A stretch of 27,573 nt of DNA, taken from an uncultured Porphyromonadaceae bacterium (GTDB lineage Bacteria; Bacteroidota; Bacteroidia; Bacteroidales; Muribaculaceae). How positions within the stretch are numbered: position 1 is the first letter of the stretch; the number at the start of each line of letters is the position of its first letter. This document shows positions 21,664 to 27,392 of this stretch, piece by piece. Location of the stretch: positions 1 to 27,573 of the forward strand of contig URQP01000019.1 of NCBI GenBank assembly GCA_900550025.1, written 5' to 3'. Below the pieces are notes generated by a model. The model searched no databases and had not been told where the DNA came from. It saw nothing but the letters and a program-made list of their open reading frames with translations. The position numbers and the translations under genes are program-made.

Positions 21664-22218
21664 ATGGGACATGTAGAAGAAGTTGCTCATCGTCTTAAAG
21701 GGCTTCGTGATGCGTTGGGATTGACCGCTGCGGAAATAGCGGCTGCCTGCGGTATTGACGAAGGTACTTATGTGGAATATGAATCCGGAAATGTCGATAT
21801 TCCGGTGAGCACCATACATAAGATTGCGCATACCTATGGAGTGGAAATTACGGCATTGCTTTTCGGAGAGGAGCCTAAAATGAAGTGCTATTTCGTGACT
21901 CGTAAAGGCGCGGGGGTGAGCGTGGAACGCCGTAACTGGTACAAATACCAGTCGCTTGCCGCCGGTTTTTCTAACCGTGCGATGGAGCCGTTTCTTGTCA
22001 CGGTAGAACCTGATGCCGGCAAAGAGCCGGAAGTGCATCTCAGCTCGCACGACGGGCAGGAGCTCAACTATGTGGAATCAGGCATAATGGAGCTGCATAT
22101 CGACGGAAAGGTGATTGTGCTGGAAGAAGGCGACACGATAATGTTCGATGCCCGCCGTCCGCATGGGATGCGCGCCGTAGGCGGGAAGCAATTGCGCTTC
22201 ATAGCGGTGATAGTTTGA
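21664..22218 (+). CDS. XRE-type HTH plus cupin transcriptional regulator
   Basis: This is a 184-residue protein. The N-terminal helix-turn-helix (about residues 8-65) is of XRE/HTH_3 type: RLKGLRDALGLTAAEIAAACGIDEGTYVEYESG, followed by STIHKIAHTYGVEITALLF. The C-terminal cupin_2 barrel (about 105-183) has PEVHLSSHDGQELNYVESGIMELHIDG and LEEGDTIMFDARRPHGMRAV. Such regulators sense a small molecule in the cupin pocket. The acyl-CoA synthetase gene starts 37 bases after its stop with no terminator, so they are probably one transcript, and the synthetase substrate or product is a plausible ligand. This is inferred from context. The ATG at 21664 is well placed, since residues 2-10 lead straight into the first HTH helix. 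Confidence 0.9.
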   Translation: MGHVEEVAHRLKGLRDALGLTAAEIAAACGIDEGTYVEYESGNVDIPVSTIHKIAHTYGVEITALLFGEEPKMKCYFVTRKGAGVSVERRNWYKYQSLAAGFSNRAMEPFLVTVEPDAGKEPEVHLSSHDGQELNYVESGIMELHIDGKVIVLEEGDTIMFDARRPHGMRAVGGKQLRFIAVIV

Positions 22219-22255
22219 TAAATACGTATACAATAGATAAAAACATATAGACAGT

Positions 22256-23911
22256 ATGCTCGAAAAATTTCTTGACAAGACGGAATTTGATTCGTATGAG
22301 GATTTCATGGCAAATTTCCATGTCAATGTACCTGAGAATTTTAATTTTGGATACGATGTGGTCGACGAATGGGCGCGTATCGAGCCCGGCAAGAAAGCGT
22401 TGCTGTGGACCAATGAGGAGGGAGAGGCCATACAATTCACATTTGCCGACATAAAACGTGAGAGCGACAAGGCCGCGTCGTTTTTCCTTTCGCTTGGCAT
22501 AAAGAAAGGCGATATGGTAATGCTCATATTGAAACGCCGTTATCAATTCTGGTTTTCCATCATAGCATTGCACAAGATAGGGGCGGTGACAATACCTGCC
22601 ACCCATCTGCTTACGGCAAAGGATATAGTCTACCGCTGCAATGCGGCGGACATAAAGGCCATAGTCGCGGTCGGCGACGATGTCGTCCTGAAGCATATAA
22701 TAGACGCAAAGCCCGATTGCCCTACGCTGGAACATTGCATATCCACCGGGCCTGTTGTTCCTGAAGGATGGCTGGATTTCGGTAAGGGATGTGAGGAAGC
22801 GGCACCGTTTGTGCGCCCTGACAATCCTAATAGCAACGGTGACATTTCGCTGATGTACTTCACTTCTGGAACGACAGGAGAGCCGAAGATGGTGGCTCAC
22901 GATTTCACCTATCCTTTGGGGCATATCATAACCGGCTCGTATTGGCATAACCTCCACGAAAGCAGCCTGCACCTTACGCTTGCCGACACCGGTTGGGGGA
23001 AGGCCGTATGGGGAAAACTTTACGGGCAGTGGATTGCCGGCGCCAATGTTTTCGTCTACGATTTCGAGAAATTCAAGCCGGTAGATGTGCTGCATAAAAT
23101 CCACGATTACCGCATCACCTCGTTCTGCGCACCTCCAACGGTGTTCCGTTTCCTGATACGCGAGGACTTGACCAAGTTCGACATTTCCTGTCTTAAATAT
23201 TGCACGATTGCAGGTGAGGCGTTGAACCCGAGCGTATACGATGAGTGGTTGCGCTTGACTGGCATTAAGCTGATGGAGGGTTTCGGGCAGACTGAGACCA
23301 CCCTGACTATAGCGACATATCCGTGGATTGAGCCTAAGCCCGGCTCAATGGGAAAGAAAGGGCCGGTTTACGACATTGATTTGCTGACCTCCGACGGACG
23401 ATGGGCTGAGGACGGCGAGCAGGGAGAAATCGTTGTGCGCACGCACGGCAGGAAACCGCTCGGCCTGTTCAAGGAATATTACCGCGACCCGGAGCTTACG
23501 CACGAGGCATATCACGACGGCATCTATCATACCGGCGACGTGGCTTGGCGTGACGAGGACGGATATTTCTGGTTCATAGGGAGGAAAGACGACGTGATAA
23601 AGTCGTCTGGCTACCGTATCGGCCCGTTCGAGGTGGAGAGCGCGCTGATGACACATCCGGCGGTGGTGGAATGCGCCATAACCGGCGTACCCGACGAGAT
23701 TCGCGGTCAGGTGGTGAAGGCTACCATCGTTCTTGCCCCGGCATACCGTGACCGTGATAAGGAGCAGCTCACGAAAGAGATTCAGGACCATGTGAAGCGT
23801 ACCACTGCTCCCTACAAATATCCGCGCGTAGTCGAGTTTGTCGACGAGTTGCCGAAGACCATAAGCGGCAAAATCCGCCGTGTCGAAATCCGCCAGAAAG
23901 ACAACAAATAG
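22256..23911 (+). CDS. AMP-forming acyl-CoA synthetase (ANL superfamily), substrate unknown
   Basis: This is a 551-residue cytoplasmic enzyme that activates a carboxylic acid to acyl-AMP and then to acyl-CoA. All ANL core motifs are present: the ATP-binding loop [11 protein letters not shown] (201-211), GFGQTETT (342-349), the adenine/ribose region [29 protein letters not shown] (424-452, with Asp428 and Arg443), and the catalytic lysine K539 in ISGKIRR. It resembles medium-chain or acetyl-CoA-type synthetases, but the substrate pocket cannot be assigned from sequence alone. No CoA transferase or beta-oxidation gene lies next to it. A strong terminator follows the stop. Confidence 0.92.
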
Positions 23912-23935
23912 AACTTTGTTGGATAGTGTAAATAC

Positions 23936-23969
23936 AAAAAGGATATGCCGGGCGGGCATATCCTTTTTT
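23936..23969. terminator. Bidirectional terminator between the acyl-CoA synthetase and the GGGtGRT gene
   Basis: AAAAAGGATATGCC pairs with GGCATATCCTTTTT around a four- to six-base loop, with an A run before and a T run after. It can end the plus-strand synthetase transcript and the convergent minus-strand transcript. Confidence 0.88.
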
Positions 23970-23990
23970 GATGATATTCTGTGGAGAATG

Positions 23991-25001
23991 TTACTTGTTG
24001 AGGGCGGTAGCCACGTCAACGGCGCAAGCTACTGTGCAGCCTACCATCGGGTTGTTGCCGATTCCGAGGAATCCCATCATCTCCACGTGAGCCGGTACGG
24101 ACGAAGAGCCTGCGAACTGTGCATCGCTGTGCATACGTCCCATAGTGTCGGTCATACCGTAGGAAGCAGGACCTGCAGCCATGTTGTCAGGATGGAGCGT
24201 GCGTCCTGTTCCACCGCCGGAAGCTACCGAGAAGTAAGGCTTGCCTGCGAGTGTGCGCTCTTTCTTGTATGTACCTGCTACCGGGTGCTGGAAGCGTGTC
24301 GGGTTTGTCGAGTTACCTGTGATGGAAACGTCAACGCCTTCTTTCCACATGATTGCAACGCCTTCGCGTACATCGTCAGCACCGTAGCATTTCACTTTCG
24401 CGCGCGGACCTTTTGAATAAGGTATCTCACGGACAACTTTCAATTCGCCGGTGAAATAGTCGAATTCTGTCTGTACGTATGTGAATCCGTTGATGCGGGA
24501 GATAATCATTGCAGCGTCTTTGCCGAGACCGTTGAGGATAACGCGCAACGGTTCTTTGCGCACTTTGTCGGCCTTAGCGGCGATTTTGATGGCTCCTTCA
24601 GCGGCTGCGAACGACTCGTGGCCGGCAAGGAAAGCGAAGCATTTTGTCTCTTCGCGGAGAAGGCGCGCTGCAAGATTGCCGTGTCCGAGACCTACTTTGC
24701 GGTCGTCGGCAACTGAACCCGGAATGCAGAACGACTGCAAGCCGATACCTATTGCCTCGGCAGCGTCAGCGGCATTCTTGCATCCTTTCTTCAACGCGAT
24801 TGCGCAACCTACCACGTAAGCCCATTTTGCGTTTTCGAAGCAGATTGGCTGTGTCTCCTCACAAGTCTTGTAAGGGTCGATGCCGGCAGCGTCGCAAATT
24901 GCGTTAGCCTCTTCAATATCTTTGATGCCATTTTCGTTCAAGGCAGCGAGAATCTGCTTGATACGGCGGTCCTGACTTTCAAATTTCACTTCTCTAATCA
25001 T
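23991..25001 (-). CDS. GGGtGRT family protein, function unknown, partner of an Fe-S scaffold-like protein
   Basis: This 336-residue soluble protein carries the motif that names its family, GGGTGRT, at residues 262-268 (SVASGGGTGRTLHPDNMA). It is rich in cysteine (at 36, 47, 54, 66, 74, 92, 121, 205, 322 and 326), including C-x6-C (47/54) and C-x3-C (322/326), which could hold a metal or cluster. LGHGNLAARLLREE and FLAGHESFAAAEGAIKI are other ungapped, helix-rich segments. No signal peptide or membrane helix is seen. The gene lies downstream of the scaffold-like gene with a 15-base gap and a strong AAGGAGG site. Family members occur in anaerobes and tend to sit beside such a scaffold-like gene, as I recall. 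The activity is not established. Confidence 0.9.
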   Translation of the reverse strand: MIREVKFESQDRRIKQILAALNENGIKDIEEANAICDAAGIDPYKTCEETQPICFENAKWAYVVGCAIALKKGCKNAADAAEAIGIGLQSFCIPGSVADDRKVGLGHGNLAARLLREETKCFAFLAGHESFAAAEGAIKIAAKADKVRKEPLRVILNGLGKDAAMIISRINGFTYVQTEFDYFTGELKVVREIPYSKGPRAKVKCYGADDVREGVAIMWKEGVDVSITGNSTNPTRFQHPVAGTYKKERTLAGKPYFSVASGGGTGRTLHPDNMAAGPASYGMTDTMGRMHSDAQFAGSSSVPAHVEMMGFLGIGNNPMVGCTVACAVDVATALNK

Positions 25002-25008
25002 GATCTTT

Positions 25009-25015
25009 CCTCCTT
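25009..25015 (-). promoter_or_regulatory. Strong Shine-Dalgarno sequence for the GGGtGRT gene
   Basis: On the minus strand AAGGAGG is 7 bases before the ATG at 25001. Most genes in this window lack such a match. It ties translation of the GGGtGRT gene closely to the end of its upstream partner, whose stop is one base away. Confidence 0.8.
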
Positions 25016-25016
25016 A

Positions 25017-25709
25017 TTATTCTTTACGTGGATCAATATATTTAACAGCATCCGCAAAACGTCCGTATGTGCCTTTGGCTTTTTCGATGGCTTCTTTCGG
25101 GTCGGTACCGTTCTTTATCATCTCCATCATCTTGCCGAGGTGGATGAACTCGTAGCCGATTACCTGATTCTCCTCGTCGAGGGCCATACGTGTGCAGTAG
25201 CCTTCGGCCATTTCCAAGTAGCGTGTTCCGGTTTTCGTAGTGCCGAACATCGTTCCTACTTGGCTACGCAAACCTTTGCCGAGGTCTTCCAAAGAAGCGC
25301 CGATTGCGAGACCGCCTTCGGAGAATGCCGATTGTGTGCGGCCGTAGACGATTTGCAGGAATAGTTCGCGCATTGCAGTGTTGATGGCGTCGCATACGAG
25401 GTCGGTGTTCAACGCTTCAAGCAGAGTCTTGCCCGGAAGGATTTCCGATGCCATGGCTGCCGAGTGGGTCATACCGGAGCAGCCGATAGTCTCTACCAAT
25501 GCCTCTTGGATGATTCCGTCCTTGACGTTAAGCGTCAGCTTGCACGCTCCCTGCTGCGGTGCGCACCAGCCGATACCGTGGGTAAGTCCGCTGATATCCT
25601 TGATTTCTTTCGAGCGCACCCATTTGCCCTCTTCGGGAATCGGCGCTGAAGGGTGGTTTGCACCTTTCTTTACACAGCACATTTGCTGTACTTCATGAGT
25701 GTAAATCAT
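25017..25709 (-). CDS. IscU/NifU-like iron-sulfur scaffold-type protein, first gene of the GGGtGRT operon
   Basis: This 230-residue soluble protein resembles the Fe-S scaffold-like proteins found next to GGGtGRT genes. The conserved scaffold-like segment is ETIGCSGMTHSAAMASEILPGKTLLEAL (73-100, with Cys77), similar to the G-C-x-x-S-x-A-S-x-S-x-x-x-x-x-x-x-x-G-x-x-x-x-E pattern of IscU/NifU. Further cysteines at 11/12 (MCCVKKG), 49 and 56 (GWCAPQQGACKL), 106 and 172 could be cluster ligands. The first ATG (25709) is used; a later Met at residue 10 would retain the CC pair but remove the leading residues. A TAnnTTTG promoter lies upstream. Cluster assembly is the analogy; the target protein is unknown, and the adjacent GGGtGRT protein is the obvious candidate. 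Confidence 0.82.
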   Translation of the reverse strand: MIYTHEVQQMCCVKKGANHPSAPIPEEGKWVRSKEIKDISGLTHGIGWCAPQQGACKLTLNVKDGIIQEALVETIGCSGMTHSAAMASEILPGKTLLEALNTDLVCDAINTAMRELFLQIVYGRTQSAFSEGGLAIGASLEDLGKGLRSQVGTMFGTTKTGTRYLEMAEGYCTRMALDEENQVIGYEFIHLGKMMEMIKNGTDPKEAIEKAKGTYGRFADAVKYIDPRKE

Positions 25710-25762: not shown

Positions 25763-25793
25763 CAAAGTTACGCAAAATTCGGATAACCGCCAA
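25763..25793 (-). promoter_or_regulatory. Promoter of the scaffold - GGGtGRT operon
   Basis: On the minus strand TAACTTTG (complement of 25763-25770) is a full -7 match, with TTGG (25790-25793) 19 bases upstream as a near -33 box. The start codon at 25709 lies about 54 bases downstream. Confidence 0.6.
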
Positions 25794-25857: not shown

Positions 25858-27246
25858 TTACAAACTTGGTGAAAAATTAATATCCGGAATGATAGTGCTT
25901 GAAAGCTTGTCCTTGATGAGGAATCCCATATAGAGCGGGATTGTTAGGACATCGCCTTCACGTCCTACATTATATTGTCCCAGCTTGATTGCGCTCTTGA
26001 TGTGATATACGTTTTTGTTCTTAAGAATCGTAGCCATACTTTTAGCCTTACTGCTCTTCGCTTTCACTTCAATTATGACGCATTCGTCTTTGAATCTCAC
26101 CAAGAAATCCAATTCCAGTCCGCTGTCTTTATGGAAATAGTATAACTTTTGTCCTGACTTGCATAAAAAATCAGCCATGAGGTTTTCGAAAATTGCTCCT
26201 TTGTATCCAAGAAGATTCCCTTTTAAAATGTCTGTCTGAGTGCCATAGTCGAGCATTGCCATAAATATTCCTATGTCTGTAGTATACAACTTGAAACAGT
26301 CTTGGATGGCATTTCCTTCTAATGGCAATTCCGTAATCCGTGTGTTGTAGCACCTTCTGACTATTCCGGCATCTTCCAGCCATTGTATGCTTCCGGAGTA
26401 TTGAGACGCTCGTCCGCCCTTTCTGACTATGGAATATTGAAATTTCTTGTTCTCCTTGGCCAATTGTTTCGGTATCGACTCAAAGCATTCCCGGATATGA
26501 GGTTTGTCTGTGTCAGCCGCGTATTTTACCATATCCTCTTCGTATTCTGCAATAAGGTTGCGTTGCAGTTTGTATATAAGCTCGATGTTTTTAGATTCAA
26601 GATAGCAATTTACAACTTCAGGGAGACCTCCGACTATGACGTATCTGTAGAGTAATTCAGTCATTGCTTTGTGGATTCCGTCAGGAACGGCTTTCTCGTT
26701 GTCGAAGTATGATTTAACGGCATCAATGATAGTGTCGCTTATGCCGTTTGCCCATAGGAACTCCTCGAAATCTAATGGATGCATATCTACGATGGTTTCA
26801 TATCCTACGGGTACAGAGTCTTGCCCTTCATCATCCTTGCTTTTATTTCTGCTTTTGCCGTAGCCTTTTACTCCTAAGAGGGAGCCTGTTGCAATGACAT
26901 CGAAACGGCCGTCTATATGAAATGACTTAAGTGCGGTTTTTGCTTCCTTGCATTCTTGAATCTCGTCAAGGATAATGCATGTTTTTCCTTCGATGAAACG
27001 GCTGCCTTTAATAAGTGCTGACAGGTTGAGGACAATGGTGTCAACATCTAAATTGCCGGTAAACGCAGCTTTTTTGTCTGGCTCAAGAATGAAGTTCATA
27101 TAAACCACGCTTTCATAATTCTCTTTTGCGAATTTCTGGACAATATATGTCTTTCCACACTGGCGTATGCCTTTTATTACAAGAGGTTTTCTGTCCGTGG
27201 ATTTCTTCCACTCGTTAAAAAAAGTTTCTATTTTTCTTCTAAGCAT
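25858..27246 (-). CDS. AAA (AAA_14) ATPase with DUF4143 domain
   Basis: This is a 462-residue protein using the ATG at 27246 (MLRRKIETFF). The longer frame to 27378 runs through the promoter and repeat array and is rejected. Walker A is GIRQCGKT (26-33), preceded by RKPLVIK, and Walker B is CIILDEIQE (90-98). HPLDFEEFLWANG (156-168) and RYVIVGGLPEVV are typical of AAA_14 proteins. The C-terminal DUF4143 part has E354 in GAIFENLMADFL, D380 in LELDFLV and E393/K395 in IIEVKAK, the layout of a PD-(D/E)XK-like fold. Family members are frequent in Bacteroidetes; their biological role is poorly defined. It is a single gene behind a four-fold repeat array. Confidence 0.9.
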   Translation of the reverse strand: MLRRKIETFFNEWKKSTDRKPLVIKGIRQCGKTYIVQKFAKENYESVVYMNFILEPDKKAAFTGNLDVDTIVLNLSALIKGSRFIEGKTCIILDEIQECKEAKTALKSFHIDGRFDVIATGSLLGVKGYGKSRNKSKDDEGQDSVPVGYETIVDMHPLDFEEFLWANGISDTIIDAVKSYFDNEKAVPDGIHKAMTELLYRYVIVGGLPEVVNCYLESKNIELIYKLQRNLIAEYEEDMVKYAADTDKPHIRECFESIPKQLAKENKKFQYSIVRKGGRASQYSGSIQWLEDAGIVRRCYNTRITELPLEGNAIQDCFKLYTTDIGIFMAMLDYGTQTDILKGNLLGYKGAIFENLMADFLCKSGQKLYYFHKDSGLELDFLVRFKDECVIIEVKAKSSKAKSMATILKNKNVYHIKSAIKLGQYNVGREGDVLTIPLYMGFLIKDKLSSTIIPDINFSPSL

Positions 27247-27269
27247 AGTTTGATTGTATTCTTGTGATG

Positions 27270-27277
27270 CAAAGTTA
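27270..27277 (-). promoter_or_regulatory. -7 promoter box of the DUF4143 ATPase gene
   Basis: TAACTTTG on the minus strand (complement of 27270-27277) is a perfect -7 element, with no TTTG at the -33 distance. Its upstream side touches the first repeat of the array, and the leader before the ATG at 27246 is only about 20 bases. Confidence 0.55.
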
Positions 27278-27392
27278 CACTTTTTCGAGCGAATATTGTC
27301 GATTGTGATACATTTTTTCAAATGAATAATCTGTGATGATTGCATTTTTTTAAGCGAATATTGCCAGTTGTGGCACATTTTTTCAAACGAAT
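27278..27392 (-). repeat. Four 17-bp direct repeats at 32-33 bp spacing upstream of the DUF4143 ATPase
   Basis: On the minus strand the unit is approximately ATTCGYTTGAAAAAATG. Copies (plus-strand coordinates) are 27278-27294, 27311-27327, 27343-27359 and 27376-27392, starting 33, 32 and 33 bases apart. The 15-16 base gaps are related but less conserved. Such regular spacing, about three DNA turns, ending exactly at a promoter -7 box suggests a cooperative regulator-binding array. Confidence 0.8.

Follow-up and report, generated by a model that had tools for sequence, protein, structure and literature searches.

The gene pair and its distribution

The window analysed here, a stretch of 27,573 nucleotides from an uncultured Porphyromonadaceae bacterium, encodes on its minus strand a NifU/IscU-like protein of 230 aa (25017..25709; hereafter NifU-like) and a GGGtGRT protein (PF14057) of 336 aa (23991..25001). 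The NifU-like gene precedes the GGGtGRT gene in the direction of transcription, with an intergenic gap of 15 bases; both open reading frames (ORFs) and their spacing are as a first-pass annotation of this DNA had given them. The same annotation singled out the two genes as the strongest candidate for an undescribed system in this window. They turn out not to be peculiar to it: the pair is a widespread, abundant and already named family (PF14057 in public records), with GGGtGRT genes present in Bacteroidota, Bacillota, Spirochaetota, Actinomycetota (Collinsella) and gamma-proteobacteria. The window copy is ordinary; the interest lies in the activity of the pair.

Among 80 genome-contig loci, the best of at least 589 matching stretches and hence close relatives, the NifU-like gene is located directly upstream of the GGGtGRT gene in 78. 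The match at L062 begins at contig base 117 and that at L067 at contig base 2, so that an upstream NifU-like gene cannot be shown at these two remaining loci. In addition, 497 genomes in three draws were searched with each protein separately, the draw centres, which were chosen as carriers of the pair, being included in the counts. GGGtGRT and NifU-like genes were identified, respectively, in 26 and 24 of 149 Bacteroidales, in 10 and 10 of 149 genomes from the phylum of a Treponema genome, and in 10 and 10 of 199 genomes from the phylum of an Oscillospiraceae genome. Altogether, 46 genomes encode GGGtGRT and 44 encode an essentially full-length NifU-like protein (matches spanning at least residues 8-229 of 230), every one of the latter within the 46, and all 44 NifU-like genes are same-strand neighbours of GGGtGRT, separated from it by about 540 nt at most. 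This neighbourhood survey had been set beforehand, and the expected recurrent co-occurrence was borne out; co-presence and co-absence give Fisher p values of 5e-17 and 1e-25 for two of the three draws, neither these values nor the counts being corrected for relatedness.

Several cases are incomplete. The GGGtGRT gene of G293 is divided between two contigs, and in G372, which encodes GGGtGRT without a full NifU-like protein, the contig end falls inside the NifU-like gene. In G445, the other of the 46 GGGtGRT genomes without a full NifU-like protein, a remnant (C33:34763-35456) contains the start of the NifU-like gene abutting the end of the GGGtGRT gene, with internal stops, i.e., the two genes have been damaged together. 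NifU-like N-terminal fragments (residues 1-35 and 1-55) are all that is found in G486 and G247, neither of which has GGGtGRT. Other IscU/SufU-type proteins in the Oscillospiraceae-phylum draw score at most 27.2 bits, and the NifU-like partner is thus clearly distinct from them. The presence of GGGtGRT is patchy, given that in a draw of 198 genomes from the phylum of the Bacteroides fluxus genome (G002) it was found in G002 itself only (1/198). One Bacteroides bin has the pair on two contigs (L003, L004), which represents either a second copy or a strain mixture. No third operon gene recurs, the largest neighbour groups comprising 6 rows; same-strand neighbours within 100 nt of the pair occur downstream in 17 of 106 rows and upstream in 16 of 113, some rows duplicating one place.

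In 26 of the 120 best GGGtGRT database matches, all longer than 500 aa, the NifU-like and GGGtGRT parts are found in one chain (such records include P0005, P0007, P0010, P0012, P0015, P0018-P0020 and P0022-P0032). Because the junctions vary between records and 24 of these chains are known from single records, they probably stem from assembly frameshifts or lost stop codons, a true gene fusion being the less likely origin. The GGGtGRT tree places five spirochaete rows of the Treponema type (L028, L030, L031, L032, L048) beside Bacteroidales, whereas the NifU-like tree places four of these five with other spirochaetes. In approximately unbiased (AU) tests, the Bacteroidales grouping of these rows is rejected by the NifU-like data (p-AU 0.0003), while the alternative grouping is compatible with the GGGtGRT data (p-AU 0.47), for which the disagreement between the trees thus lacks significance. 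Treponema may or may not have acquired the pair horizontally.

Expression signals, neighbouring genes and the 3' end of the GGGtGRT gene

The promoter, ribosome-binding site and terminator at this locus are assigned from sequence motifs and folds. The AAGGAGG reported in the first-pass annotation is present at 25009..25015 (minus strand), 7 nt 5' of the GGGtGRT ATG, and is the probable ribosome-binding site of this gene. AGGAG or GGAGG is found within 22 nt 5' of GGGtGRT in 95 of 117 rows, mostly Bacteroidota, in a tally that counts the window twice and duplicates a few loci; the listed loci with at least 36 nt between the two genes are without a strong Shine-Dalgarno site. Sites of this type are said to see little use in Bacteroidota.

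The probable -7 box of a single promoter is TAACTTTG (25763..25770, minus strand), 53 nt 5' of the NifU-like ATG, which fits the pattern TAnnTTTG that we take to be the Bacteroidota-type -7 consensus. Given that the window contains 25 TAnnTTTG sites against 18 expected, this site by itself is weak evidence. Across loci, however, 71 of 87 Bacteroidota-like ones have the pattern no more than 160 nt from the start of the NifU-like gene, compared to 9.2 after mononucleotide shuffling. Of 16 loci chosen for intergenic gaps of 24-472 nt, none has it in the 140 nt 5' of GGGtGRT, although chance would yield about one such locus. The common promoter proposed earlier is probable on this comparative signal, even if the window site is not compelling, and the two genes probably form one operon.

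Directly 3' of the GGGtGRT gene, there is a 14-bp hairpin with U-runs on both strands (23936..23968). The fold of 23928-23978 has an energy of -19.7 kcal/mol (z -6.8) on the minus strand and -20.5 (z -5.6) on the plus strand; a consensus terminator scan of the window did not list this hairpin. It is probably a terminator common to the GGGtGRT gene and the convergent gene downstream, which encodes an AMP-forming acyl-CoA ligase and has its stop at 23911. The gene upstream of the pair (25858-27378) encodes an AAA_14/DUF4143 ATPase, and both flanking genes are outside the NifU-like/GGGtGRT unit. The ligase gene follows one for an HTH-cupin regulator (21664-23911 for the two), a regulator-enzyme pair of ordinary appearance.

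Mobile elements appear to use the 3' end of the GGGtGRT gene as an integration site in relatives, judging from direct repeats of the gene end and tyrosine integrases (L007/L096/L097, L008, L021, L023, L062, L073, L084, L085, L088/L093, L090-L095, L118). The equivalent of the segment duplicated in relatives is 23991..24170 (minus strand) in the window, where it has no other match at E <0.5. Elements of such type commonly integrate in the 3' ends of conserved genes; our literature searches, in open-licence PubMed Central, found no paper that names the GGGtGRT gene as an integration site. In B. fluxus (L007), a 405-aa tyrosine integrase is encoded 0.37 kb downstream of GGGtGRT, and a 178-bp copy of the gene end, with 94% identity, is located 24 kb after the gene. 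Ten ORFs scanned in this 24-kb stretch gave matches that include a RecE-like exonuclease, a resolvase/invertase and a DNA methyltransferase, the sole phage-type match being a weak, spanin-like one.

The 80 genome-contig loci were surveyed with five query integrases, such that other integrase types and repeats beyond the available stretch would escape; L007 and L073 have a query-related integrase immediately downstream, and L008, L021, L023 and L062 have a second GGGtGRT gene end. Integrase-like matches in L012 and L080, which are upstream and kilobases off, were not counted, and neither was a 20-residue reversed match in L012. Viral contigs and one genome repeat just the final 54-67 codons of the gene. 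In the viral contig L088/L093, an integrase follows each of two gene ends, apparently as expected of two tandem elements, and L095, a Phocaeicola record, contains a 2.3-kb remnant with an integrase fragment. The repeat block coding for residues 315 to ~322 (GNNPMVG and the residue after it) shows no difference in five of seven repeat pairs; two bases differ in L095 and one in L088/L093. In the viral contigs L084 and L085, distantly related integrases begin 93 and 135 bases after the GGGtGRT stop. A 17-bp repeat at the extreme 3' end of the gene is seen in L084/L152 only, and no far-side repeats of at least 13 bp were found in the searched pieces of L085, L086 and L089.

The two proteins and their response to iron

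The GGGtGRT protein matches the PF14057 profile with 638.4 bits (cut-off 27) over profile positions 1-326 of 327. As previously noted from the translation, it contains a GGGTGRT motif, here residues 262-268, and ten cysteines (36, 47, 54, 66, 74, 92, 121, 205, 322 and 326). Among 94 sequences of the family, G262, G263, G264, G266, R267 and T268 are invariant and T265 is conserved in at least 90%. The cysteines fare differently: Cys205 is the sole invariant one (94/94), Cys36 (93) and Cys121 (92) come close, Cys92 is found in 71 members, and the remaining six vary; the suggestion that GGGtGRT is a Cys-rich cluster protein is not supported. The predicted structure consists of a helical N-terminal part and a Rossmann-like domain, with the conserved loop 262-299 predicted at a pLDDT (predicted local distance difference test) below 50. 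A fold search, in which the N-terminal part was not searched alone, yielded no match at E<=0.001 in PDB or BFVD, and sequence comparison aimed at the identity of the fold yielded none at E<=10.

The NifU-like protein matches the NifU_N profile (PF01592) over residues 56-113 with 20.4 bits, below the curated cut-off of 22; of its 23 Bacteroidales relatives detected at E<=0.001, 14 are at or slightly above that cut-off. The matched segment includes Cys77, in agreement with the IscU/NifU-like segment initially proposed. The structure model of a relative (81% identical) has an IscU-type core fold over residues 38-126, and, as judged from model and sequence together, the NifU-like protein has an IscU-type core. 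Cys49, Cys77 and Cys106 are invariant in 35 of 35 sequences, and Cys56 is present in 34.

The pair is not the housekeeping system of iron-sulfur (Fe-S) assembly. SUFBD_core is present in 144 of the 149 Bacteroidales genomes, the five without it also being without the pair, and all 26 genomes with the pair have SufB/D. The NifU_N family was detected in 25 of the 149, and in 23 of these it is the pair's own NifU-like gene; the other two genomes (G396, G399) encode ordinary NifU_N proteins and are without the pair. G454 has the pair, with its own NifU-like protein below the NifU_N threshold. No second U-type protein was detected at E<=0.001 in the 26 Bacteroidales with the pair.

Published data connect both genes with iron. 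In Bacteroides thetaiotaomicron, the values for BT0173-BT0174 under low iron are -12.8 to -11 (PMC10434189). In Clostridium pasteurianum under excess iron, GGGtGRT (F502_05012) is 7.1-fold up in the early phase, the top value of its table column, and 2.2-fold in the late phase, and the NifU-like protein (F502_05017) is 2.4- to 3.7-fold up early and 1.6- to 2.9-fold late (PMC5395762). Near-constant co-occurrence combined with this joint rise with iron indicates that the pair is very likely one unit. Expression studies have recorded the proteins in samples from the rumen, from the caecum of chickens and from human stool or gut (PMC7035244, PMC11204068, PMC12643325, PMC12101220, PMC13041051, PMC12014591); in the last of these, NifU-like and GGGtGRT proteins with adjacent locus tags are both decreased. 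The GGGtGRT name is also listed in a virulence-factor screen (PMC9942572). In line with the first-pass annotation, we found no published activity for GGGtGRT or its NifU-like partner in open-licence PubMed Central.

Function of the pair and comparison with known systems

We tentatively favour, at somewhat short of an even chance, the explanation that the pair is one obligate iron-dependent unit in which the metal centre resides mainly on the IscU-fold NifU-like subunit, with GGGtGRT as the catalytic or sensing subunit. The starting points, namely the fixed gene pair, the iron-responsive abundance in two phyla, the IscU-type core and the signs of a single promoter, are established here or in print. 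The NifU-like protein would have been converted from a general scaffold to a fixed subunit or private carrier, holding an Fe-S (or Fe) centre via Cys49, Cys77 and Cys106, with Cys56 as the usual fourth ligand; with the centre held by these cysteines, the metal would be mainly on the IscU-fold partner, leaving a catalytic or sensing role for GGGtGRT. The centre could dock beside the glycine-rich GGGTGR loop of GGGtGRT. The latter is Rossmann-like, and its invariant R236, H239, R267, H270, D272, N273, D285, R289, H291 and D293 would make up the site for a phosphorylated or nucleotide ligand. Modelling of both proteins in one chain (the P0007 read-through, in which both parts are complete) gave a pTM (predicted template modelling score) of 0.55 and no resolved interface between them. 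It is possible, if doubtful, that an IscU-type fold has been recruited here as a permanent metal-bearing subunit of an enzyme, with GGGtGRT contributing a Rossmann-like core and an active-site loop without known counterpart.

A dedicated scaffold, i.e., a NifU-like protein that assembles a cluster and passes it to GGGtGRT, which carries it on its own cysteines, is close to what was first proposed for this locus. The IscU-type core with Cys77, the retained equivalent of IscU Cys63, the obligate pairing and the near-constancy of GGGtGRT Cys36, Cys121 and Cys205 (93, 92 and 94 of 94) all fit such a role. The proposal is nevertheless weakened by the loss of the Cys37/Asp39 motif, which we take to be the active site of IscU (E. 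coli numbering), replaced by Gln/Ala, and GGGtGRT, with just three near-constant cysteines (Cys92 71/94), offers no conserved four-Cys site, so we consider this explanation unlikely. What stands of the original interpretation is that the genes belong together and are linked to iron; the part of GGGtGRT as a Cys-rich cluster protein is not supported.

The strong increase with iron in two phyla would also suit an iron or iron-sulfide buffer that stores surplus iron in Fe-replete cells, and in one paper GGGtGRT is described as strongly expressed in vivo by several genera of the chicken gut. However, the approximately 50 invariant polar residues, many near one loop, resemble an active site rather than a store, and the Fe-S enzymes aconitase and PFOR are likewise up with iron in the table that lists the pair (PMC5395762), which makes a buffer rather improbable. 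Also improbable, and slightly more so, is a sulfur relay in which the NifU-like protein, acting like SufU, conveys persulfide from a cysteine desulfurase to GGGtGRT: among 219 rows of immediate neighbours, no gene family occurs more than 6 times (grouped by BLAST, the rows not being individually annotated), and the metal-site Asp is absent, as judged via the IscU alignment alone, the SufU alignment having begun only at residue 56. An accidental proximity of two genes with separate functions is barely credible, given that their presence and absence are coupled in the three genome groups and that no group in the three draws has many NifU-like genes away from GGGtGRT; no point in support of it was found.

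If an IscU-type fold has indeed been recruited as the metal-bearing subunit of such an enzyme, many gut anaerobes would perform an iron-dependent reaction that is absent from metabolic maps; should the two proteins act as an Fe-S enzyme or carrier, the iron-replete metabolism of common gut bacteria has an unassigned step. The strict pairing, the few invariant residues and the modest size of the two proteins make the question of activity directly testable.

Compared to the rest of the PF14057 family, the window protein is ordinary, with up to 96% identity to other members and no difference found. Residues ~118-262 of GGGtGRT have an alpha/beta layout similar to that of phosphofructokinase, UDP-GlcNAc 2-epimerase, MurG and other Rossmann-like folds, albeit with no match at E <0.02 and with the GGGtGRT loop modelled at low confidence. 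The NifU-like protein differs from IscU, NifU_N proteins and SufU in being longer by about 100 C-terminal residues, in not having the LPPVK segment (compared by eye), and in the window neighbours of its gene, which are the AAA_14 ATPase and GGGtGRT genes, without a desulfurase. At the positions of IscU Cys37 and Asp39, it has Gln53 and Ala55 (or a gap), flanked by Cys49 and Cys56. Its Cys106 is at the start of the helix that matches the IscU Cys106 helix, in a structural alignment whose register is uncertain by a few residues, and IscU Cys63 is retained as Cys77.
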